Of a stretch of DNA of 34,356 nt, positions 159 to 24,437 are shown one piece after another (within the stretch, counting starts at the first letter, position 1; every line of letters starts with the position of its first letter). The notes under the pieces were generated by a model. That model ran no database searches. It was not told where the DNA came from and saw only the letters and a list, made by a program, of their open reading frames with translations. The position numbers and the translations under genes are program-made. Location: contig CALKGV010000032.1 in assembly GCA_938091805.1 (NCBI GenBank), positions 1 to 34,356 on the forward strand, given 5' to 3'. This DNA comes from an uncultured archaeon. GTDB lineage: Archaea; Thermoproteota; Bathyarchaeia; Bathyarchaeales; DTEX01.

Positions 159-1163
159 ATGATAATACTACGAGGCAGAATTATGGAGCTTCGAAGGATT
201 CAAATGACAAGGGGCGGAACCTTCTTTGTCACATTACCTAAAGAATGGGCCTTACGTCATGGCATAAGTCGAGGATCTATCGTCGCAAGCTTAGTAACAT
301 CCGACGGAAAACTTGTTATTGATCCAAAATATGATATTGAACCGGCTCCGCGGATCATAAGTATTAAACCTGGACTTTATCTCAGCCGTGAGATCATTAG
401 CAAATACCTTCTAGGTTATGATATTATAAGCATTGAGGCCAAAGATCGAATTACTCTCGAGCAAAGAGAAATTATTAAACAAACAGCTTCCCGTCTTATA
501 GGTCTAGAAATAATTGAAGAAGATTATAGTAAAATAGTTATGCAGTGTTTACTTGAACCCTCAGTTTTATCACCTGAGAAGATTCTACGCCGCGAACACT
601 TAATTACCTCAGGCATGTGTAAGGATGCAATAATAGCGTTATTAGAGAGAGACATAAATTTAGCTAAAAATGTTATCGCTAGAGATAATGAAGTTGATAG
701 ATTATACTTTCTCTTAGTTAGGATTCTAAGAACAATCATCCAGAACCCTAATCTAGGTCAGAAACTTAATTTGCATCCAATAAGCTGTTTAGATTATAGG
801 TTAACCGCAAGTTTGGTTGAATCAGTTGCTGATCAATCATCCCAAATTGCTGAGCATGTTATTAAACTTAAAGATTTAATTTTAGCTGAAGAGGTTTTAA
901 AAGCGCTATATGACCTCTACAAATCTGTTCATGAAACCTATGAAGACGCTGTCGCTGCATTCATATCGCATAATACTACCCTAGCGGAATCTGTAAGAGA
1001 AAAAGCAAAGGATATTGAGGAACTGGGTCAAAAAACCGAATCCTTAGTCAACATTTTACCTATTGAAAAAGCCCAAGATTTAGTTGCTATCGTTCTGCTA
1101 ATGAACCGCATATATGATCATAGCGTAGATATCTCCGACCTGACAACTCCAATAATAGCTTAG
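159..1163 (+). CDS. AbrB/SpoVT N-terminal domain + PhoU domain protein (phosphate-uptake-regulator-like)
   Basis: 'MELRRIQMTRGGTFFVTLPKEWALRHGISRGS' is a SpoVT/AbrB swapped-hairpin signature, followed by an all-helical PhoU-like region. Start may be the internal Met MELRR at 183. Confidence 0.8.
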   Translation: MIILRGRIMELRRIQMTRGGTFFVTLPKEWALRHGISRGSIVASLVTSDGKLVIDPKYDIEPAPRIISIKPGLYLSREIISKYLLGYDIISIEAKDRITLEQREIIKQTASRLIGLEIIEEDYSKIVMQCLLEPSVLSPEKILRREHLITSGMCKDAIIALLERDINLAKNVIARDNEVDRLYFLLVRILRTIIQNPNLGQKLNLHPISCLDYRLTASLVESVADQSSQIAEHVIKLKDLILAEEVLKALYDLYKSVHETYEDAVAAFISHNTTLAESVREKAKDIEELGQKTESLVNILPIEKAQDLVAIVLLMNRIYDHSVDISDLTTPIIA

Positions 1164-1676: not shown

Positions 1677-2265
1677 GAACTCATCTCAAAACTATTTAAG
1701 TCTTTCTTGACTATGTTTTGGTATGGAGTTTCCTGAGCTTTCTGATGGTGAGTGGGAGTTTATTAGTCCTTTGCTGCCTCCTAAGGCTAGGGTTGGCAGG
1801 CCTAGGGCTGATGATAGGAGAATAATAAACGGCATTCTATACGTCTTGACTACTGGATGCAGATGGATGGATATGCCTATACGCTATGGCTCCTACAAGA
1901 CTGCTTGGAGGAGGTTTAGGCGATGGCAGGATGAGGGCGTATGGGATAGAGTATTCAGGGCCTTATCATCTGTGAGGGAGCATGGTAGGGTATGCGTTGA
2001 TAGCTCGACTGTGGAGGCTAAAAAGGGGGGAGAAATGATAGGATATGATGGCTTCAAGCATAGGAAGGGCTCAAAGATACATGTATGTGTGGATGAATAC
2101 TCCATGCCCTTAAGCATAGCTTTGGGTGCTGGAAATGAGCATGATTCGAAGCGTATAGATGAGCTATTGGAGGGCTTAAGGGAGCTTTATGCCGACTCAG
2201 CGTATGATGCTGAAGCCGTAAGGGCATAACAATACATTTAAGATATGGAATTTAGAGATGAGTTC
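1677..2265 (+). mobile_element. IS5-like insertion sequence, copy A (internally deleted)
   Basis: Terminal inverted repeats gaactcatctc (1677-1687) / gagatgagttc (2255-2265). Transposase is homologous to copies B and C. About 205 bp present in copy B (about 16701-16906) is absent. Confidence 0.9.
1723..2229 (+). pseudogene. IS5-family DDE transposase, truncated (168 aa)
   Basis: Motifs VCVDSSTVEAKKGG..IGYDGFKHRKGSKIHVCVDE and ELYADSAYD are present. The C-terminal segment with the catalytic Glu (ERFYGWLKSFRRIIVRYE in copy B) is deleted. Confidence 0.85.
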
Positions 2266-2396
2266 TAGGAATAATTTTCTGGACGTGCTTAGCTGAGGAG
2301 CCGAAAGGCTCAGGTATCCCCTCTATGCAAACATCAAACATTTTTCAAAAAACTGCGCATTGTTTTTAACGTTAACTGGAAAATCTCTCGGCTTCA

Positions 2397-2705
2397 TCAT
2401 TGAATTGTTAGAAGCCCCATTTTGCGCAGATGTTCCGCCTGGCCCTTTGTGTAGCGCCAGATTATGTCGCCGCGCGTGTCATACTGGAAGTCCCATGGGG
2501 ATACTAAGACAACATCACCGATCCTTATCCAGAATCTCCGCTTAAGCTTGCCCCTTATCCGGCATATGCGTTCATGCCCATCTTGACATTTAACCAGTAC
2601 GCGGTCGTAGCCAAGCAGCTTCATAGCTATCCCTAGTACATCATTTCCAGATGGGAGCACCAGCTCACTCATGTCTTCCTCGCTGATAACCTTCTTTTTA
2701 CCCAA
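2397..2705 (-). CDS. eif1A: Translation initiation factor aIF-1A
   Basis: GNDVLGIAMKLLGYDRVLVKCQDGHERICRIRGKLKRRFWIRIGDVVLVSPWDFQ matches the eIF1A S1-like OB fold; probable TTG start. Confidence 0.93.
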   Translation of the reverse strand: MGKKKVISEEDMSELVLPSGNDVLGIAMKLLGYDRVLVKCQDGHERICRIRGKLKRRFWIRIGDVVLVSPWDFQYDTRGDIIWRYTKGQAEHLRKMGLLTIQ

Positions 2706-2801
2706 ACTTTTGCCTCTCGAAGGATCCCGTCTTCAACTTATCTGTTAAAGGGGGAACCTTGCTTAAATACTTTTAATTATTTCGGCTGGAGAAATGCTGG
2801 A

Positions 2802-3683
2802 TTATAAGCCGGATAAACTCCAAACTCTTCTAACCGCCTCACCGGACTTTTTCACAGCTTCCCGAATCGGTAGGCTTCTTAATCTCTCATCGAAAGGTTC
2901 AGGTGTTACCGGCCCGTCGTACCCGACATCCCTCAGCGCCCTTAGGAAACTAACGATGTCTATGACGCCGGTCTCGCCTGGAAGCCTTCTGACATTGTCC
3001 CTCTGTTCATCAACTGGTATGCCCTGGGGCGCATCATTAATGTGAACGTAAATTATCTGCTTACTTCTTAAACCCCTTATCTGCTCCACCGTCCCATGCG
3101 ATGTGTACCAATGCCAGCTGTCAAGTAGTAATCCAGCATTTTCAGTTCCAATCGCATTGCAGAGCTTCAGCATGCCGTCCATTGTGCATATGAACTCATA
3201 TTTATGTCCAACTCTAAGGGTTTTAGGCGCTACAAACTCCAACCCTAGCAGGCAACCGTAATCTTCCAAAATTTCAGCTATGGGCTTAAGTCTCCTAACG
3301 TGGAATTCAAAGTTCTCATTAAATGGCAAACTATCAGAGAATGGAACTATCCATGTAAAAGCCCTATAACAGCCGATTTCATCCGCAATCTTGGCTAATA
3401 TGGGTAAATTCTTAAGATCCCCCTCATATTTCTCCTCACTGCCTCTGAAGTCCACCGGTAAAGCCCAGCCGCCGAGCCTTAGATCTCCCAGGAGGCTTTT
3501 AATATCCATAACGCTGCTCTCTTTAAGGAGGCTTCTAGCTTCCAGGATATTTATGTCTATTCCCTCGAAGCCGCCTAGATTGGCCAAATCTATTGTTTCA
3601 TGGAATGATGCTTGGAAGCCCAGCGCGTTGGGATTAAGGTTTTTAAACATATGAACACCGCCGGTTAGGAGGGGATTACTCAA
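2802..3683 (-). CDS. Sugar phosphate isomerase/epimerase (xylose isomerase-like TIM barrel, AP endonuclease 2 family)
   Basis: Motifs LLLDSWHWYTSHGT, IIYVHINDAPQG, LPGETGVIDIVSFLRALRDVGYDGPVTPEPF. Confidence 0.85.
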   Translation of the reverse strand: MSNPLLTGGVHMFKNLNPNALGFQASFHETIDLANLGGFEGIDINILEARSLLKESSVMDIKSLLGDLRLGGWALPVDFRGSEEKYEGDLKNLPILAKIADEIGCYRAFTWIVPFSDSLPFNENFEFHVRRLKPIAEILEDYGCLLGLEFVAPKTLRVGHKYEFICTMDGMLKLCNAIGTENAGLLLDSWHWYTSHGTVEQIRGLRSKQIIYVHINDAPQGIPVDEQRDNVRRLPGETGVIDIVSFLRALRDVGYDGPVTPEPFDERLRSLPIREAVKKSGEAVRRVWSLSGL

Positions 3684-4902
3684 AGAGCGTAACAGTTACC
3701 TCCTCACCCTCATCTATGACATCAAGGTTGACTGGTAAGATCACGTAGCCATCAGCATTCGAAAGGCTTGTTATGTCACCTGACTTCTTAAATGCCGGGT
3801 AAGCCTTTCCGTCAACTATCCTCACGGTGAAGAATTGCTCTCGTCCAGAGGCGGAAACAATACGCTTTGCCATCCTAGCCTTAACGGTTGTCGGCTTTTT
3901 AGGCGGCAGCCTCGCCATCTTACGTATAACCGGGATCAGAAATACGTATGCGTTGCTTAGGCATGATGCTGGGTAACCCGGCATCCCAAAAACTGGTTTT
4001 TCCCTCACCACGCCGAATAATGTTGGTTTACCCGGCTTAATCTGGACACCGTGAAATAGGAGCTTCCCATCCTCCTTTATGATGTCCGACAGCATGTCCC
4101 GTTCACCCACGGAGCTTCCCCCTGAGAAAACTATTAAATCATGATCTATGTAGCGATATAGGGCTGACCTCAAAGCTTCATATGAATCTGGAATTATCGG
4201 GGCTCTTGTGACTGATGCACCGTTTTCAAGAAGCAAAGAGGCCAAAGTATATGAGTTTACATCATAGACTTGCCCCTCTTTAAGTTCAAGCCCTAGATCC
4301 TGAACTTCAACACCTGTTGGAATTATTGCCACTCGAGGTTTCCGGTAAACCAAAGCTTTTCTTAAGCCTAAAGCCGCGAAAACCCCTATTTTAGCAGGCG
4401 TTAAAACCTCACCCTCCCTAATTATTACCTCACCCCTCTTCACATCCTCCCCCCTAGGCGATATATTTTCAAGCGGATGTACAGCCCTATAGATTAACAC
4501 GTTATCCCCCTCCTCTTCGGTGAACTCGGCCATAACTACAGAGTCGGCGCCGGGCGGTATGGGGCAGCCGGTTGCTATGCGGATACATTCCCCATTTCTT
4601 ATCTCCCTGCTCGTTGATTCACCGGCGCGTAAAACCCCGACCAGCCTTAGGGTTTTAGGGTTAAACTCCGATGCGCCGTAAGTATCCTCAGCCCTCACAG
4701 CGTAACCATCCATAGCAGCCCTATCAAAAGGCGGGATATCCATCTCAGCCACAAGATCCTTTGCTAAAACCCTGTTCGCAGACCTCTCTATTGGAACCAG
4801 CTCCGCCGCCTCCACGGGTCTAATGTGCTCCATGATTATATCCAGGGCTTTTTCGCGAGGCATTAAAAGTTTGAAGGGCGTGATCTCACTCATGCTGACC
4901 AA
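3676..4902 (-). CDS. moeA: Molybdopterin molybdenumtransferase MoeA
   Basis: PPFDRAAMDGYAVRAEDT, IATGCPIPPGADSVVMAE, IIPTGVEVQDLG, VFSGGSSVGERDML, GMPGYPASCLSNAYVFLIPVIR. Confidence 0.93.
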   Translation of the reverse strand: MVSMSEITPFKLLMPREKALDIIMEHIRPVEAAELVPIERSANRVLAKDLVAEMDIPPFDRAAMDGYAVRAEDTYGASEFNPKTLRLVGVLRAGESTSREIRNGECIRIATGCPIPPGADSVVMAEFTEEEGDNVLIYRAVHPLENISPRGEDVKRGEVIIREGEVLTPAKIGVFAALGLRKALVYRKPRVAIIPTGVEVQDLGLELKEGQVYDVNSYTLASLLLENGASVTRAPIIPDSYEALRSALYRYIDHDLIVFSGGSSVGERDMLSDIIKEDGKLLFHGVQIKPGKPTLFGVVREKPVFGMPGYPASCLSNAYVFLIPVIRKMARLPPKKPTTVKARMAKRIVSASGREQFFTVRIVDGKAYPAFKKSGDITSLSNADGYVILPVNLDVIDEGEEVTVTLFE

Positions 4903-5047
4903 TTCTCCTCACCTTACTCTCCTTAATTAAGAGACATGATGAGCGAAACATAAAGGTTTTCAATCTCACGGCTTAGGCAACATTGCGGAAAAACGCTTTT
5001 CTGGGAAAATTTATAAGACATGGTTCGTTCAAAAATAATGTGGGATC

Positions 5048-8000
5048 ATGCCTAAGAACATTCCCTTCAAAAAAGCATTATTTTTCTTAGCTCTCTCAAT
5101 ATTTTTAACATCATTTTTCCCAGTCAACTCCTTCACCGTTCATGCTGAGAGATACGTTGAAACCGCGGAGAGAGCAGCCTACTCAATATCGATATATGTG
5201 AAGGCGGTAGACGCCGTAACAGGGCAGCCAATTCAGGACGCAACGCTGATGCTTTGGGATCTCAGCACATTTGATAAGCCTCAGCCAGGCGCAGGCATAT
5301 ACTCCACAGATGAAAATGGCGAATGCCTTATTTTCGGGGATTACTTAAGAATTAAGCATTTCTATTGGCTTTATATTTACAAAGGCAACTTCGAAGAAAA
5401 AATCGTTGACTATGTTCCGGTTAAAAGGGAAATCTATCTTGAGAGGCCGGAAAACGTAAGCCTAATCCTGCAGATGGTTCCCGGAGCGATGATTGAAGTT
5501 GAGGGGATCCCCTATCTCGTTCAATCCCCAAGCCCGGAAGAACGCTATATGATCATAACAATTAAGGAGAGATCCGGAGCCCTAAATTATTCATTCATTA
5601 GGGAATATGGCAACTCACCGGATGTCTACATGCTAGGTCTAAATAGAAAAACCATCATCGTTCCGGCAAACGCACCAATTGATCTTGAAGTTAAGGTCTG
5701 GTTTTTCCTAAGGGGGATAGGCCGCATATCAGTGAGCAGCGAAATATTCTACATAAACAATAATTCTTTGCCATTAATACTTCCCCAAAGAGGCCTTTTA
5801 TCATCTGTAAAAATTCCAGCCTACAGCCTTAGGAAGGGGCTATCGCACATCGAATCGGTGTTTGCAGATGTCTCCTCAAAGCTGGACGAAGCCCAAAGAA
5901 TCGGATTCACGGTTTTCGATGAAAGACGCATACTCACCCGGGTAAGCCAGAGGAAGATTGAAGCCGAATCCCTTCTGCAAAGCGCACAAACCGATAAGGA
6001 TTTTGAAAACATATGGTTGACGCTTAGAGAAGCCCTAGGTGAAATGAACTATGTGTATGCGGTGCTGCAAAACAAATACCTAGTCAGCAAGACTAATGCC
6101 GTCTATCTCTCAGCGGTAATCTCAGTGTTCAGCATCGTATTATCATCATTCCTCTTCGAGAGTGAGAGGAAAAAGATACATGTAGGCATAATATTTTACG
6201 TCGTCTCAATAGTGATCCTTTACTTTATACATCCCGGGTCGCACGTGATAATCGACGAAAACTTCATATTGTTTTTGCAGTCAGCATCCGTATCCTTCAT
6301 CGCGGTTTTAGCCATAGTTTTCGGTATACCGCGTGTTTGGAAGGAGAGAACCGTTGAAGGCGAGGTTTCCTGGAGAAGCGCCATATCGGTGATCTTCTCC
6401 ATGGGTAAGCGCCAGATAAGGCGGAAAAAGATACGCGGTTTCTTCACAATCCTATCAATATGCATCCTCATTTTAGCGTTCACTTCGCTCACATCCTTCG
6501 GAACAGCCTTCGGCGTGGTCTCCAGCAAACTAAACGCCCTTCCCCCATCTGAAGGCATCCTCATAAGGCGGATGATAAATGGTTCATCATTAATTTTTTC
6601 ACCTCTAGGATACGGCGACATAATATCAATTTCAAATGTCGCACCAATACGTAACGTCGCGCAGAGACTGAAAAACTATCCTAAAAATGAACCCGTGGTT
6701 CGCCTTGTAAATCCCAATACCGGAGCCTTCCACTTTATTTACGGTGTTCTCGCAATATCGCCCACCAATGAATCCATCTACACAAATCTGGATGAGGTTG
6801 TTGAGGGAGGATATCTAAGTGAAGAGGTTGATGGTGAGGTTCTTATAAGCGTAAATGTAGCGAATAAGCTGGGCGTTAGAGTAAATGGCAATGTAACCCT
6901 AGAAGTTTCCGGCACAACATTAAGGAAAAACATGATAGTTAAGGGGCTGATTAACGATGAAGGATATGAGGGTTTAATTGACATCGACGGCAACCTTCTA
7001 GGGCCATCACGCCTCCTAGAAGACGGCTCGGTGAGAAGATGTAATAGCACAGAAATCATGGTGACCAATCTGAGGACCGCTGAAAAAATACAGGTGGATC
7101 TTGATGCCGTTTACGGGAGAAACGCGCCGCAATTTGTTTTGCCATCAGAAATCCTTTTTCAATTCGATCCGGAAGTGAACATTGAATCGTCCGTTAAAGA
7201 ACTAATTTTCCAATCCGGATACGACATCTTCGTCTCCCGCAACAATGAGGTCACCTACTACTACGTCGGCTCCTACATTGAATTTAAAGGGGTCGCTGAG
7301 CTTCTCATCCCAATGATTATGGTGGTCCTAAACGTCAGCATGGTTATGGTTAACAGTGCATATGAACGGGGTAAAGAGATCAGGGTGCTCTCAATGCTTG
7401 GTTTAAACCCGACGCATATAGGGCTAACATTCGTGGCTGAGGCAATAGTTATGGGAATGGTTGGCGGCAGCCTGGGCTATTTAGCCGGGCTTGGCTTCTA
7501 CAGGATCATGATCCTATTCGGGCATGATTTGATGGTTAGGGAAAAACTCGAATGGTGGTGGAGCGCCCTAGGATTCCTTCTAGCCATACTCGTCTCAGTG
7601 CTCTCAGCTATGAGGCCGGCTGCCATGGCCGTCAGCGCCTACACGCCTTCAAAGGTGAGGAAGGTTAAAAGATCTGAGGAGGAAAAGAAGAAGCGCAAGG
7701 AAGAAATATTCAAGGTTTATCACGCAAGAGAACTCACCATGCCTGTGAAGGTGCTTACAAGCGAGAAGGAGTTCTTCTTAAGCTTCTTCCTCGATCGCCT
7801 AGACGAGCTGAGAACAGGCTACACTGAGAGGGTGGAAAACATAGAGGATGTTCCCGAGATTGAAAATGTTAAGGGCGAGGTTGTAAAAACAATAAAGTTT
7901 ATTTACTATTTCGGGCCGCCGGAGCGTAGGAGAGGGACGAAGAACCGCCTAGTTTTAATAAAGAGCCCATACGAAGATTACTACAGGGTTAAATTAATTT

Positions 8001-16143: not shown

Positions 16144-16948
16144 GAACTCATCTAAAAACTATTTAAGTCTTTCTTGACTATGTTTTTGGTATGGGGTTTC
16201 TTGAGCTTTCTGACGGTGAGTGGGAGTTCATTAGTCCTTTGCTGCCTCCTAAGGTAGGGTTGGTAGACTCTGGGGCTGATGATAGGAGGATAATAAACGG
16301 CATTCTGTACGTGCTTGTTACTGGATGCTGATGGATGGATATGCCTATTCGCTATGGCTCATATAAGACTGCTTGGAGGAGGCTTAGGCGCTGGCAGGGG
16401 AGGGCGTATGGGATAGGATATTCAGGGCTTTATCATCCATGAGGGAGCATGGTAGGGTATGCGTTGATAGCTCAACTGTGGAGGCTAAAAAGGGGGAGAA
16501 ATGATAGGCTATGATGGCTTCAAGCATAGGAGGGGCTCAAAGATACATGTATGTGTAGATGAGTATTCTATGCCTCTAAGCGTAGCTTTAGGATCTGGAA
16601 ATGAGCATGATTCGAAGCGGTTCGATGAGCTATTGGAGGGCTTAGAGAAGCCTCCAAAGGAGCTTTACGCTGACTCAGCATATGACACTGAAGCAATAAG
16701 ATATAGGCTATCATCCATGAATGTGGAGGCAAACATACCCGTGAACCCTAGGAACGGTAGGAAGCCCATACAATATAGCATCGAGATCTATAAGAGGATG
16801 AGGTCAGCCGTCGAAAGATTCTACGGATGGCTCAAAAGCTTCAGAAGAATAATCGTAAGGTATGAGAGGCTGGCAGCAACATACAAAGCCCTAATAACAA
16901 TAGCATGCATAACAATACACTTAAGATATGGAATTTAGAGATGAGTTC
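16144..16948 (+). mobile_element. IS5-like insertion sequence, copy B (near full length, transposase disrupted)
   Basis: Ends gaactcatct (16144) / agatgagttc (to 16948). The transposase matches copy A but has a 1-nt deletion near 16253, a TGA in 'ggatgctgatgg', and other small lesions. ORF 16501-16938 keeps the C-terminal half including ERFYGWLKSFRR. Confidence 0.9.
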
Positions 16949-17435: not shown

Positions 17436-18575
17436 TTAGTCTTTCAATGCAACTTCCTCAACTGTTCTGTTGAGCGTTACCTCAGATATATCCCGACTAT
17501 ATTTTATTATTCTGCAAGTGTTGTCTATTGCAAGTCTAAGTATAGTGGCTATATTTGGGTCGGTCTTCTTTGTCGATATTAAGGCTATGAGGTTACCCTC
17601 AGCGGCAGCGTCATCTTTAGATTTAGCTATCACTTTATCCGCAAGCGCATAGTCCCTTTTAAGCATGGCTTTCAACGAGTCTTCAAGCAGCCGATGCGCT
17701 GAAACATTAAACTGCAGTATCTGCGAGTAATCTTCCTCATCTAATGGTTCCTTTATGAAGAGGATCTGCTCATCAATCATCCTTTTAAGGGCAGCGATGC
17801 CATCTATCAGGTTAAGGGCGTTTTCAGCGATGTTTTTCAAAACGTTTACAACTATTCTGTAACCTAAAAATTCCTTTGGGGATTTAAATCCTAAATCTTT
17901 ATAGAGATTATGCTCTAAACCAAATTTTAATTGCCTGATCACATAGAGGTTAAGCCTATTCACGTCACTGCATATACTGACAACTTCCCCCACAAGGTTT
18001 TGATTAAAGTCTTTTATAGCTAAAACCGAGCTTTTGTCAGCTAAAAGCGCAAGCGCAAACATTCTTCTAATGGCTTTCTCTACTGGAAACTCAAGGTGAT
18101 TTATTAATATTTGGATGGTTAATTCATGCTGATTTTCATCGATTATCTCAGACCCTAAAAGCGTATTCCTAATAAGGCTTCTGATGGGCAACTTAAATTG
18201 CGTAGAGTTCTCGATGTCGCTGCTGAAGCGCACATGAATAAGGCTTGCGCCCACAACGTAAAGCGCCGTTATCTTCCGGCATAGAGCCTCAGCATCATCT
18301 TTTGAGCCAACATTAATCCAGTACTCATTTAATTTTAATCTTTCTTCCAATTTTTTCTCCATGATTTTTCTCGGAATCAGGAGGAGCGAAAGGTCATCGT
18401 TAATTATGAAGTCTATTTCGCTTCCCTTCTCTATCGAGATCTCATCCACCCATTCCTTCGGTAAAGAAATAATGTAGGCTCCTCTGCCGGTGCATTGAAC
18501 TCTTCTGTAGCCTAAATCTCTCACCATTTGAAATCCCTGCTTAAAATAAAAATATTGAAAGATATATTTTTCCAT
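17436..18575 (-). CDS. AbrB domain + PhoU domain protein (second copy in the window; likely start MVRDLGYRRVQ at about 18527)
   Basis: MVRDLGYRRVQCTGRGAYIISLPKEWVDEISIEKGSEIDFII is AbrB-like, then PhoU-like helices. Confidence 0.8.
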   Translation of the reverse strand: MEKYIFQYFYFKQGFQMVRDLGYRRVQCTGRGAYIISLPKEWVDEISIEKGSEIDFIINDDLSLLLIPRKIMEKKLEERLKLNEYWINVGSKDDAEALCRKITALYVVGASLIHVRFSSDIENSTQFKLPIRSLIRNTLLGSEIIDENQHELTIQILINHLEFPVEKAIRRMFALALLADKSSVLAIKDFNQNLVGEVVSICSDVNRLNLYVIRQLKFGLEHNLYKDLGFKSPKEFLGYRIVVNVLKNIAENALNLIDGIAALKRMIDEQILFIKEPLDEEDYSQILQFNVSAHRLLEDSLKAMLKRDYALADKVIAKSKDDAAAEGNLIALISTKKTDPNIATILRLAIDNTCRIIKYSRDISEVTLNRTVEEVALKD

Positions 18576-21494: not shown

Positions 21495-23072
21495 ATGCGT
21501 AGTTCGATTTCAATCATTATTTTGCTTCTGCTTCTTTCTGCATTCGTCATTTTTGTTGAGGGAGCTCCCGTCACATATAGGGTTGACAAGGAGTGGATGC
21601 AAATATGGGTGAATAAGGATGGTTCAATTGACATATTATACAATATAACCTTAACCTATACATCTGGCTCTCCTGAGGGAGTAATCACTGTAGGCATGCC
21701 GAAAAAAGATTTTCAGATCGAATACGTTAAGGATATCGAAGGCAATAACCTTGAATACCAATCCATATCAAACGGAGATTTCTACGGCGTTGAAATTAAA
21801 CTTAGGAAGCCGGTGAATCTCAATCGGCGGAACATAATAATTGTTTACGTTGTTGTTCCAGAAATGATTTATAAAGATGAAAATAATCCGGGAAATGTTG
21901 GGCTGAAAATTTATCCCTCAACATTTGATGACGCTGAGGATCCAATAAACAATATTCGAGTTGCAATAGTTCTTCCAGAGGAAGTTAAGGAGGATGAAAT
22001 AAAATATTTAGCGGGCTCCGCCCCAAAAAGCATTTTTAGAAACGATGAAGGATCACTCGTCGTCTATTGGGAATCCGACAACTGGCCAGCCTACAGAGAG
22101 TTCTGGATTGGAGTTTCATTTCCGGAAAAATACGTTAACATAGGTCCAGACATATGGTATTACATTACAGTTGGCGGTGCAATAGCAGTCTTTTCAGTCA
22201 TCGTGATGATTATGGCTGTGGTTCTCGTTAGAAGAAAGGCTGAATATGAAAAGCCTAAGATAGCAATTGAGGCTCTTGGTCCAGCGCGCGGGCTCACCGC
22301 TGTTGAAGCGGCGGTTGTCTTAGATTTGAAACCTATAAGGGTTTTAATCATGATTATTTTTGGGCTTCTCCTCAAAAGGGCCATAATGGTTATGTCAACT
22401 GAACCTGTCATTAAACTTAAAAGATTAGATTGGGAAAATGCAGAGCCGCCCAGCCTAAGATATTATGAGATTGATTTTCTAGATGCCTTAAGACCTGATG
22501 GAAGTTTGAACGAAGTTTTGCTTGCGAAAACCTATCTGAACCTTAGAGATGCTGTAAACATTAAGCTCCGAGGTTTCTCAAGGGTTGACACCGTAAACTA
22601 CTATAAATCTATTGTTCATAGGGCTTGGCAGCAGGTTACACAGGCTGGCATACCGGAGCTTAAATGTGGCGCTCTTGAAGAGAACATGGAGTGGCTTTTA
22701 GCCGACGAGCATTTTGAAGAGAAGATGAAAGTGGCGTTTCCGCCGGATATCATAATTTATCCTAGACCGGACTGGTGGTGGTACTGGCACGGACCGCGGC
22801 TTCCAACCCAAACTGGCGGAGGTGAAGTGAAGCCGTTGCCCATACCCGGGCAAGAGTTTGCGAATAGCATAGTTTTGGCCCTTGAGAAAACCGCGAATAA
22901 CATTGTTAAGAACACGCAGGAATTTGCAAATCGCCTAGTTCCAGCTCAAAGAACCTCAGTAAGCCCGAAACCGCTTAGATATCCAAGCTGCGTTTGCGCT
23001 TGTGCTAACTGCGCATGTGCATGCGCATGTGTAAGCTGCGCCTGTGCCTGTGCTCATGGAGGTGCTAGATGA
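21495..23072 (+). CDS. DUF2207-like membrane protein with Cys-alternating C-terminal tail; candidate RiPP precursor fusion
   Basis: Signal peptide MRSSISIIILLLLLSAFVIFVEG, extracytoplasmic beta-rich domain, TM helix IWYYITVGGAIAVFSVIVMIMAVVLV, cytoplasmic domain, W-rich linker, terminal CVCACANCACACACVSCACACAHGGAR*. Confidence 0.8.
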   Translation: MRSSISIIILLLLLSAFVIFVEGAPVTYRVDKEWMQIWVNKDGSIDILYNITLTYTSGSPEGVITVGMPKKDFQIEYVKDIEGNNLEYQSISNGDFYGVEIKLRKPVNLNRRNIIIVYVVVPEMIYKDENNPGNVGLKIYPSTFDDAEDPINNIRVAIVLPEEVKEDEIKYLAGSAPKSIFRNDEGSLVVYWESDNWPAYREFWIGVSFPEKYVNIGPDIWYYITVGGAIAVFSVIVMIMAVVLVRRKAEYEKPKIAIEALGPARGLTAVEAAVVLDLKPIRVLIMIIFGLLLKRAIMVMSTEPVIKLKRLDWENAEPPSLRYYEIDFLDALRPDGSLNEVLLAKTYLNLRDAVNIKLRGFSRVDTVNYYKSIVHRAWQQVTQAGIPELKCGALEENMEWLLADEHFEEKMKVAFPPDIIIYPRPDWWWYWHGPRLPTQTGGGEVKPLPIPGQEFANSIVLALEKTANNIVKNTQEFANRLVPAQRTSVSPKPLRYPSCVCACANCACACACVSCACACAHGGAR

Positions 23073-24437
23073 ATGGTTAAAATCAATTTCAGAAGTTTTA
23101 ATCCCTTCAAGAGGAGAGAGAGGGCTCCACTATATCATTTAAGGATTCATGATGATGAACACAGGGGTTTACGTCTCCACTTAAGGTTGGAGAAGGATGG
23201 AAGCAGCGTATTAATTATTAATGCCTCAAGGATTCTATTTCTGAATCGAGTTGCAACTGAGTATATTGAATCCTTCATGAAAGGTGAAAGCGAGGATGAA
23301 ACCGTGAGGAAGATGGTTAAGCGCTATAAAGTTGACGCTGAAACTGTCCGAAGGGATTATCAGAATGTTTTATTTGTGATAAACACTTTTGTGAACACTC
23401 CAGATGTCTGCCCGGTTTCTTACCTAGGCGTTGAAAAGATGGAGCCCTTTCAAAAGGAGCTGAGCGCACCTTACCGCATGGATTTAGCCATAACATACCG
23501 GTGTAATAATAAATGCTTACACTGTTATGCTGGCGGACCGAGGGAAACCATGGAGCTAACAACTCAAGAATGGTTCAGGGTGATGGATAAAATCTTTGAG
23601 CTTGGGATCCCGCACGTAGTTTTCACCGGAGGAGAGCCGACGTTAAGAGATGATCTGCCGGAGCTGATTGCTTACGCTGAGAGGGTCGGTCTTATCTGCG
23701 GCTTAGTTACGAATGGACGTAGGCTTAAGGATGAAGCCTACTTTAAATCGCTTGTTGATGCTGGTTTGGATCACGTCCAAATAACGCTTGAATCCCATGA
23801 TCCTAAAATACACGATATGATCACCGGCATTACCGGCAGCTGGGATGAAACTGTTCAAGGTTTAAAGAATGCCATTGAATCGCCCATCTACACTTTAACG
23901 AACACAACTCTAACTAAACATAATGCCAACGATATGCTGAAAACCATAGATTTCATTCATGATTTGGGGCTAAAACAGTTTGCATGCAACAGCCTAATAT
24001 ACTCTGGAAAAGCTGCTGAAACGGAGGTTATTAAGAAAATTGCTATTGAAGAAAATATGCTTGAACCAATATTAAGTAAAATAAAAGAGCATGCTCAAGA
24101 TCTAGGGATGGAGTTTATATGGTATACGCCCACAGAATATTGTATTCTAAACCCCTTGAAGTTAGAGTTGGGAATAAAGACTTGCAGCGCATGTCGCATA
24201 AGCATGTGCGTAGAACCGGATGGAACAGTTATCCCATGCCAAAGCTATTTTACGCCTCTCGGAAACATACTTAAAGACGATTGGGTGAAAATATGGCGGC
24301 ACCCATTATGTCTCGAGATTAGGTCGAGAAAATATGTTCCGGAAAAATGCTATGAATGCCCAGATCTAAACATCTGCGGAGGCGGATGCCCGCTGAAAAT
24401 TAAGTATGAAACCTTGGTCTGCAGCAACACGCCGTAA
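23073..24437 (+). CDS. Radical SAM/SPASM peptide maturase with PqqD-like N-terminal recognition domain
   Basis: PqqD-like region (SVLIINASRILFLNRVATEYIESFMKGESEDETVRKMVKRYKVDAETVRRDYQNVLFVINTF), CNNKCLHC, FTGGEPTLRDDL, SPASM CSACRISMCVEPDGTVIPCQSYFTPLGNI..CYECPDLNICGGGC. Confidence 0.92.
   Translation: MVKINFRSFNPFKRRERAPLYHLRIHDDEHRGLRLHLRLEKDGSSVLIINASRILFLNRVATEYIESFMKGESEDETVRKMVKRYKVDAETVRRDYQNVLFVINTFVNTPDVCPVSYLGVEKMEPFQKELSAPYRMDLAITYRCNNKCLHCYAGGPRETMELTTQEWFRVMDKIFELGIPHVVFTGGEPTLRDDLPELIAYAERVGLICGLVTNGRRLKDEAYFKSLVDAGLDHVQITLESHDPKIHDMITGITGSWDETVQGLKNAIESPIYTLTNTTLTKHNANDMLKTIDFIHDLGLKQFACNSLIYSGKAAETEVIKKIAIEENMLEPILSKIKEHAQDLGMEFIWYTPTEYCILNPLKLELGIKTCSACRISMCVEPDGTVIPCQSYFTPLGNILKDDWVKIWRHPLCLEIRSRKYVPEKCYECPDLNICGGGCPLKIKYETLVCSNTP

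Follow-up and report, generated by a model that had tools for sequence, protein, structure and literature searches.

A radical SAM enzyme encoded in an archaeal genome of 1.7 Mb probably modifies the cysteine-rich C-terminal tail of the membrane protein encoded just before it. The product would be a membrane-anchored, RiPP-like domain bearing, most likely, cysteine thioethers. The two genes lie in a DNA stretch of 34 356 nucleotides (the window). Modification of the tail was retained as the simplest mechanism because a cytosolic enzyme, a peptide-binding RRE, a peptide-crosslinking fold and a matched Cys repeat that is itself predicted to be cytosolic are brought together in this system.

The locus and the membrane protein

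Three consecutive genes on the + strand encode a 131-aa protein, a 525-aa membrane protein and a 454-aa radical SAM enzyme (Table 1). The TGA stop codon of the membrane protein gene occupies positions 23070-23072 and the ATG of the enzyme gene starts at the very next base. The first-pass annotation of this DNA had described the 525-aa ORF, its ten-Cys tail and the maturase gene directly after the stop codon. Its coordinates and description of the pair were correct in the details checked, but it had missed the conserved upstream gene. According to neighbour clustering, the TM/zinc-ribbon family to which the upstream protein belongs adjoins the pair in 19 loci from three groups. A 237-aa zinc-ribbon/HTH protein is encoded close by in the Asgard loci of the second enzyme clade (see below).

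Table 1. Features of the three-gene locus (positions in the window; aa, residues of the encoded protein)
Feature	Position	Strand	Remarks
Small accessory protein, 131 aa	21077..21472	+	Hydrophobic segments and zinc-ribbon-like C-terminal part (two CxxC)
DUF2207-like membrane protein, 525 aa	21495..23072	+	Proposed substrate
Signal sequence, aa 1-24	21495..21566	+	Hydropathy
Extracellular beta domain, aa 25-215 (predicted)	21567..22139	+	AlphaFold2; weak PF09972 match at aa 34-199
Transmembrane helix, aa 220-246	22152..22232	+	AlphaFold2 model and hydropathy
Winged-helix-like and helical region, aa 263-433	22281..22793	+	Predicted cytosolic; common to the (CHSA)n-tailed family
Amphipathic helices, aa 451-482	22845..22940	+	Candidate leader-like recognition segment
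Cys/Ala tail CVCACANCACACACVSCACACA, aa 499-520	22989..23054	+	Proposed modified core
C-terminal HGGAR	23055..23069	+	GG-containing end common to both tail types
RRE-radical SAM-SPASM enzyme, 454 aa	23073..24437	+	Proposed maturase
RRE/PqqD-like N-terminal domain, aa 19-108	23127..23396	+	Model: strands 20-57, then helices 59-108
CxxxCxxC radical SAM motif (C144, C148, C151)	23502..23525	+	Invariant
Linker Cys C357 and SPASM Cys C371, C389, C426, C429, C435, C439, C450	24141..24422	+	

Other neighbours of the pair were recorded. Downstream in many loci from the taxonomic order of the window (L137, L140, L204-L209; cluster 5) lies a gene for a HAD-phosphatase protein whose C-terminal part is a membrane region. 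In most Asgard loci of the first enzyme clade (L150-L162, L179-L195), the enzyme gene is followed by that of a class-I SAM methyltransferase, possibly acting in an extra tailoring step. Unlinked or tail-less Asgard enzymes (L168, L170, L171, L200, L201) are found beside a PHP-domain protein (cluster 9) and this methyltransferase. Elsewhere in the window, genes at 159-1163 (+) and 17436-18575 (-) encode related proteins that combine an AbrB/MazE-like N-domain with a PhoU domain. An IS4/5-type transposase ORF (DUF4096 and a partial DDE domain) is present at 1723-2229 (+), with a related ORF at 16501-16938 (+). Reading the locus as a defence system was rejected, PADLOC having returned only generic viperin-type radical SAM matches. 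The plasmid search gave a single generic Paenibacillus radical SAM match.

In the AlphaFold2 model, residues 27-210 of the membrane protein form a beta domain and residues 220-246 its single TM helix. Parts that are winged-helix-like and helical follow, then two amphipathic helices (452-481), and the tail region (484-525) is disordered, with a pLDDT below 50. The charges flanking the TM helix favour a cytosolic C-terminus, and two Asgard members with three TM segments have their C-terminus on the same side. The Cys tail is predicted from this model and these charges to be cytosolic, in support of the topology put forward at first. Conservation in the amphipathic segment preceding it was 0.55, vs 0.43 and 0.41 in the two flanking linkers, and this segment may be the recognition site for the enzyme.

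With the DUF2207 profile (PF09972), the window protein scored 20.3 bits, below the Pfam gathering cut-off of 24.4, and 5 of 41 homologs of the membrane protein matched at E<=0.01; judged by these scores, 'DUF2207-like' denotes a resemblance and not membership. The profile of the membrane protein gave no match when searched against solved structures. The predicted fold of the beta domain matches that of ribophorin I, from the oligosaccharyltransferase (E 1e-10), and those of the N-domains of M1 aminopeptidases, in both cases with low TM-scores. These matches may be of interest, the family being present in Asgard archaea.

Conservation of the tail and its pairing with the enzyme

The membrane protein of the window ends in ...RYPS-CVCACANCACACACVSCACACAHGGAR, with 10 Cys within 22 residues. 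The CxCxCxxCxCxC codon pattern occurs in the window's genome at this locus only (two overlapping matches). Tails of the standard form (n=58) were compared over the 22-residue block; they had been selected with a pattern in which the Cys and part of the Ala positions are set, so that the full invariance of these residues partly reflects the selection. Tails of other forms, ten in number, some with fewer Cys and some of the Methanocella type, were left out. The 58 tails are encoded by 57 different DNA sequences and give only 17 peptides. Genome pairs showed on average 12.5 silent codon differences vs 1.35 residue-changing ones, i.e. about nine silent differences per residue change. Mean peptide identity was 0.94 in the block vs 0.26 in the 35 preceding residues (ungapped comparison). 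When 41 whole proteins (22-94% identity) were aligned, few columns were invariant, the Cys and Ala of the tail being among them, and the tail was the best conserved region (0.79 vs 0.32-0.57 elsewhere). The Ala spacers are nearly invariant too, the VS interruption is kept and Cys is the most strictly kept residue in this tail type as in the second one described below. These sequence comparisons show that the tail is maintained by selection at the protein level.

A functionless repeat produced by chance or slippage has a negligible probability. The codon pattern does match microsatellites in some genomes, but the tail is not a product of chance because the pattern is unique in its genome and silent codon differences predominate; the excess of the latter refutes slippage. 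The diversity of the DNA sequences, the kept VS interruption and the occurrence of the tail in three phyla argue in the same direction.

The class of the window was sampled with 251 genomes and the enzyme was counted at E<=1e-80. It was found in 67 of them. Orthologs that keep the maturase but are devoid of the tail had been named beforehand as a refutation of the first-pass reading; the tail is present in all 67 genomes. Most of these tails were read individually, a few (e.g. G150, G233) being taken from match counts and body-search positions. Starting from the tail, 69 class genomes carry it and the enzyme gene lies beside it in every one, with two damaged copies: the enzyme is frameshifted in G006 and runs into an assembly gap in G199. 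As to further apparent exceptions in the class, runs of N are present in or near the enzyme gene of G199 and G222, and the loci of G078, G081 and G159 end at contig edges. The tail-less homologs of the membrane-protein body (E<=1e-8) that were seen were all either short fragments or cut by a contig edge. The tail pattern itself matched in 86 class genomes, 17 of which were found on reading to hold microsatellites or unrelated sequences. The match in G031 was rejected as a poly-Cys microsatellite.

Two further samples were used, with 295 genomes from the phylum of a Methanocella MAG and 196 from the phylum of a Heimdallarchaeota MAG (Asgard). In the former, four genomes have the tail and the enzyme is adjacent in all four. 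In the latter, a CACACAGG-type tail, with 6-8 Cys and ending in AGGGR, was found in 32 genomes, and 31 of these also have the enzyme family; the enzyme was not detected in the remaining one, G564. A Fisher test of this association gave 3e-16 for the enzyme family and 6e-29 for its closer group alone, both values being descriptive as related genomes are non-independent. The enzyme lies elsewhere in the genome, unlinked to the tail, in G572, G593 and G708, and co-occurrence in such genomes says more than adjacency. Outside its class, the window's phylum has the enzyme in three genomes (G885, G983 and G951). The tail is beside or near the enzyme in the first two, and none was found on the stretch read around the enzyme of G951. 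The locus of G983 (L211) had been considered tail-less, which was rejected as the tail protein lies about 1 kb off. No tail was found in six Asgard genomes with the close enzyme (G580, G587, G599, G605, G649, G733). Some of the genomes with a tail-less enzyme, which include G951 and G595, are explained by contig edges and others are unexplained. By its sequence matches, the pair recurs in three archaeal phyla, with Bathyarchaeia, Methanocellales and Asgard groups. The co-conservation of tail and maturase that the first-pass annotation expected across archaeal genomes holds, unlinked Asgard cases included.

About 30 genomes of the Asgard phylum sample have an enzyme of lower similarity (32-38% identity; E-values mostly 1e-60 to 1e-90). 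Twenty of the 24 loci read for this second clade carry a 707-735-aa membrane protein with a (CHSA)n...GGFR tail or a close variant, the gene being usually divergent from that of the enzyme. The tail is nearly invariant and ends in SGGFR at L258 (2578-4761, - strand), at L259-L280 and at L281, the most distant locus, which is interrupted by the contig end. The remaining four loci are at contig edges (L271, L277), hold a fragment only (L276) or have no such tail locally (L261, in G595). The (CHSA)n carrier is homologous to the window protein over the winged-helix/helical region (hhalign 99.9%, E=1.6e-36). On the enzyme tree, 9 changes of tail label were counted, for a minimum of 8 and a mean of 29.2 after shuffling; the tree was a quick one and near-copies inflate the clustering of labels. 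Each main tail type is confined to one clade of the tree, so a change of enzyme clade goes with a change of Cys spacing, CxC in one and CxxxC in the other; Cys-richness and the GG-containing end are kept. Enzyme and tail are thereby shown, in sequence terms, to co-vary as a matched pair.

With this pairing, the tail is very probably the substrate of the enzyme. CxC repeats are typical of metallothioneins, and one might see in the tail an unmodified metallothionein-like metal or Fe-S module, the enzyme then having its target elsewhere, in a different part of this protein or outside it; the zinc-ribbon protein of the locus would fit. This is improbable, since enzyme and tail co-occur even when unlinked, the enzyme clade tracks the tail spacing and the Ala spacers are kept beyond what metal binding alone requires.

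The enzyme and the proposed modification

Pfam profiles matched the PqqD-like, radical SAM and SPASM parts initially read in the enzyme: the E-values were 4e-29 for Radical_SAM, 1e-8 for SPASM and 2e-4 for PqqD, the latter with 21.8 bits, just under the cut-off of 23.4. Among 58 family members, Radical_SAM and SPASM matched in 58/58 and PqqD in 34/58 at E<=0.01, and C144, C148 and C151 are invariant. The structure model (mean pLDDT 91) has an RRE-like N-domain, with strands followed by three helices, and the SuiB and CteB matches cover its full length. The SPASM pattern CX9-15GX4C + CX2CX5CX3C is present. Its cysteines C371, C389, C426, C429, C435 and C439 are invariant; the last one, C450, is found in 83% of the main clade and is absent from the (CHSA)n clade. 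The linker cysteine C357 is nearly invariant; the linker Cys of SuiB completes Aux I (PMC6231123).

The nearest solved structures in the fold search were SkfB, SuiB and CteB, with PqqE lower and the epimerase EpeE also among the matches. SkfB (5e-36) and PqqE led the profile search, followed by SuiB and CteB. Sequence identity to solved maturases was about 16-22%. In NCBIfam, 66 families matched and none of the best 25 came near its curated cut-off (best NirJ2, 141 bits vs 500). The nearest named relative, 97% identical to the window enzyme, is from a Candidatus Bathyarchaeota MAG. At L158, two tandem enzymes (2288-3712 and 3753-5156) follow one tail gene; the first has the SPASM end CGGGTPL instead of CGGGCPL and is possibly a degenerate partner.

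The class of the enzyme and the Cys-richness of its presumed substrate tip the balance towards thioethers as the modification. RRE/SPASM-type enzymes catalyse varied reactions, and the tail could be acted upon without crosslinking, for example by epimerisation, desaturation, methylation at C or S or some other radical chemistry on the Cys/Ala repeat; the EpeE match and the methyltransferase gene after the enzyme in Asgard loci would agree with this. Such an outcome is nevertheless unlikely, as crosslinking enzymes are the top matches by fold as well as by profile and Cys is kept most strictly in both tail types. We know of no radical SAM crosslink on a (CA)n repeat. The tail had been presented at first as a core peptide fused to a membrane protein and matured by the neighbouring enzyme; co-conservation, co-variation by clade and the maturase-like fold speak for this, while a thioether crosslink and a metal, redox or signalling role of the tail are inferred.

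The mechanism proposed is the following. The carrier would start with a signal sequence and an extracellular beta domain, cross the membrane with one TM helix and continue in the cytosol with a winged-helix/helical region and the disordered Cys/Ala tail. The RRE-like N-domain of the enzyme would bind the amphipathic segment and the radical SAM/SPASM part would then install several Cys-derived bonds in the tail. Thioethers would link Cys sulfurs to neighbouring residues, Ala being an acceptor present in both tail types. Once modified, the tail would remain part of the protein at the cytosolic side of the membrane and serve there as a fixed module, with a structural, metal/redox or interaction role.

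There is no sign of a release of the tail. The usual RiPP scheme of leader, core and cleavage, together with the GG that follows the Cys block, could make the membrane protein a very long precursor whose modified tail is cleaved and released as a peptide. This is very unlikely: no conserved protease or exporter was found among the neighbour clusters of the pair loci, the carrier's own domains are conserved and the tail is predicted to lie in the cytosol instead of being exported. In the preferred reading, with a tail that stays attached, the chances seem evenly divided as to whether this is a widespread archaeal modification, in which a fused Cys/Ala or Cys-His-Ser-Ala repeat would be turned into a cytosolic multi-thioether tail according to a code matched between enzyme clade and spacing. 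If true, it would be a new archaeal protein modification and offer naturally occurring repeat substrates with which to study radical SAM chemistry. The two natural enzyme-tail pairings can be used for swap experiments.

Comparison with known systems

RiPP enzymes are usually regarded as makers of small secreted peptides; the likely target here belongs permanently to a membrane protein, whose end it forms, and is nearly unchanged across Bathyarchaeia. The system resembles RiPP maturation but departs from it on two RiPP criteria, the short precursor and the released product. Sactipeptides and ranthipeptides have a short precursor with a leader and a released core, and the partner found here is a protein of 500-730 aa. 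The open literature searched, in which subscription papers are mostly not included, yielded no paper that pairs DUF2207 with a radical SAM enzyme or mentions tails of this kind. A survey of archaeal RiPPs reports ranthipeptide and sactipeptide clusters without going into particulars, and no such Cys-tailed protein turned up when its text was searched by term (PMC12144867).

SkfB, CteB and SuiB are sactipeptide and related maturases with RRE and SPASM or Twitch domains. They share with the window enzyme the order RRE, radical SAM, SPASM, and the linker Cys of SuiB is comparable to C357. Their substrates are short precursor peptides, whereas here the substrate would be a membrane protein of 500-730 aa whose tail is a repeat. 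Radical SAM-SPASM enzymes also act inside real proteins: anSME modifies sulfatases and QhpD a dehydrogenase subunit. As proposed here, what they modify stays within a functional protein instead of being released; unlike here, their targets have no repetitive terminal tail on a membrane protein and no pairing of two enzyme clades with two tails.

The nearest published idea is that of the TIGR04222 membrane proteins, whose Cys-rich C-terminal tail was proposed as the substrate of MNIO (DUF692) enzymes (PMC12452194). A third of the genomes bearing a TIGR04222 gene are without MNIO and more than a quarter of the proteins have no C-proximal Cys (PMC12452194). The TIGR04222 profile matched 3 of 41 members of the present family, with E 0.001 at best; for L146 the score was 14.5 bits vs a cut-off of 43, and the match spans the TM and winged-helix region. 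The two systems have in common a membrane protein, a C-terminal Cys-rich low-complexity segment and a gene adjoining that of a peptide-modifying enzyme. They differ in that MNIO is not a radical SAM enzyme, occurs with these proteins mostly in Actinomycetota, and has a substrate tail predicted to be periplasmic (PMC12452194). The tail pattern differs as well, and protein and enzyme are less tightly associated there than in the archaeal pair. The logic is the same and the profile similarity weak; if true, the modification proposed here would lend weight to the similar bacterial TIGR04222/MNIO proposal.
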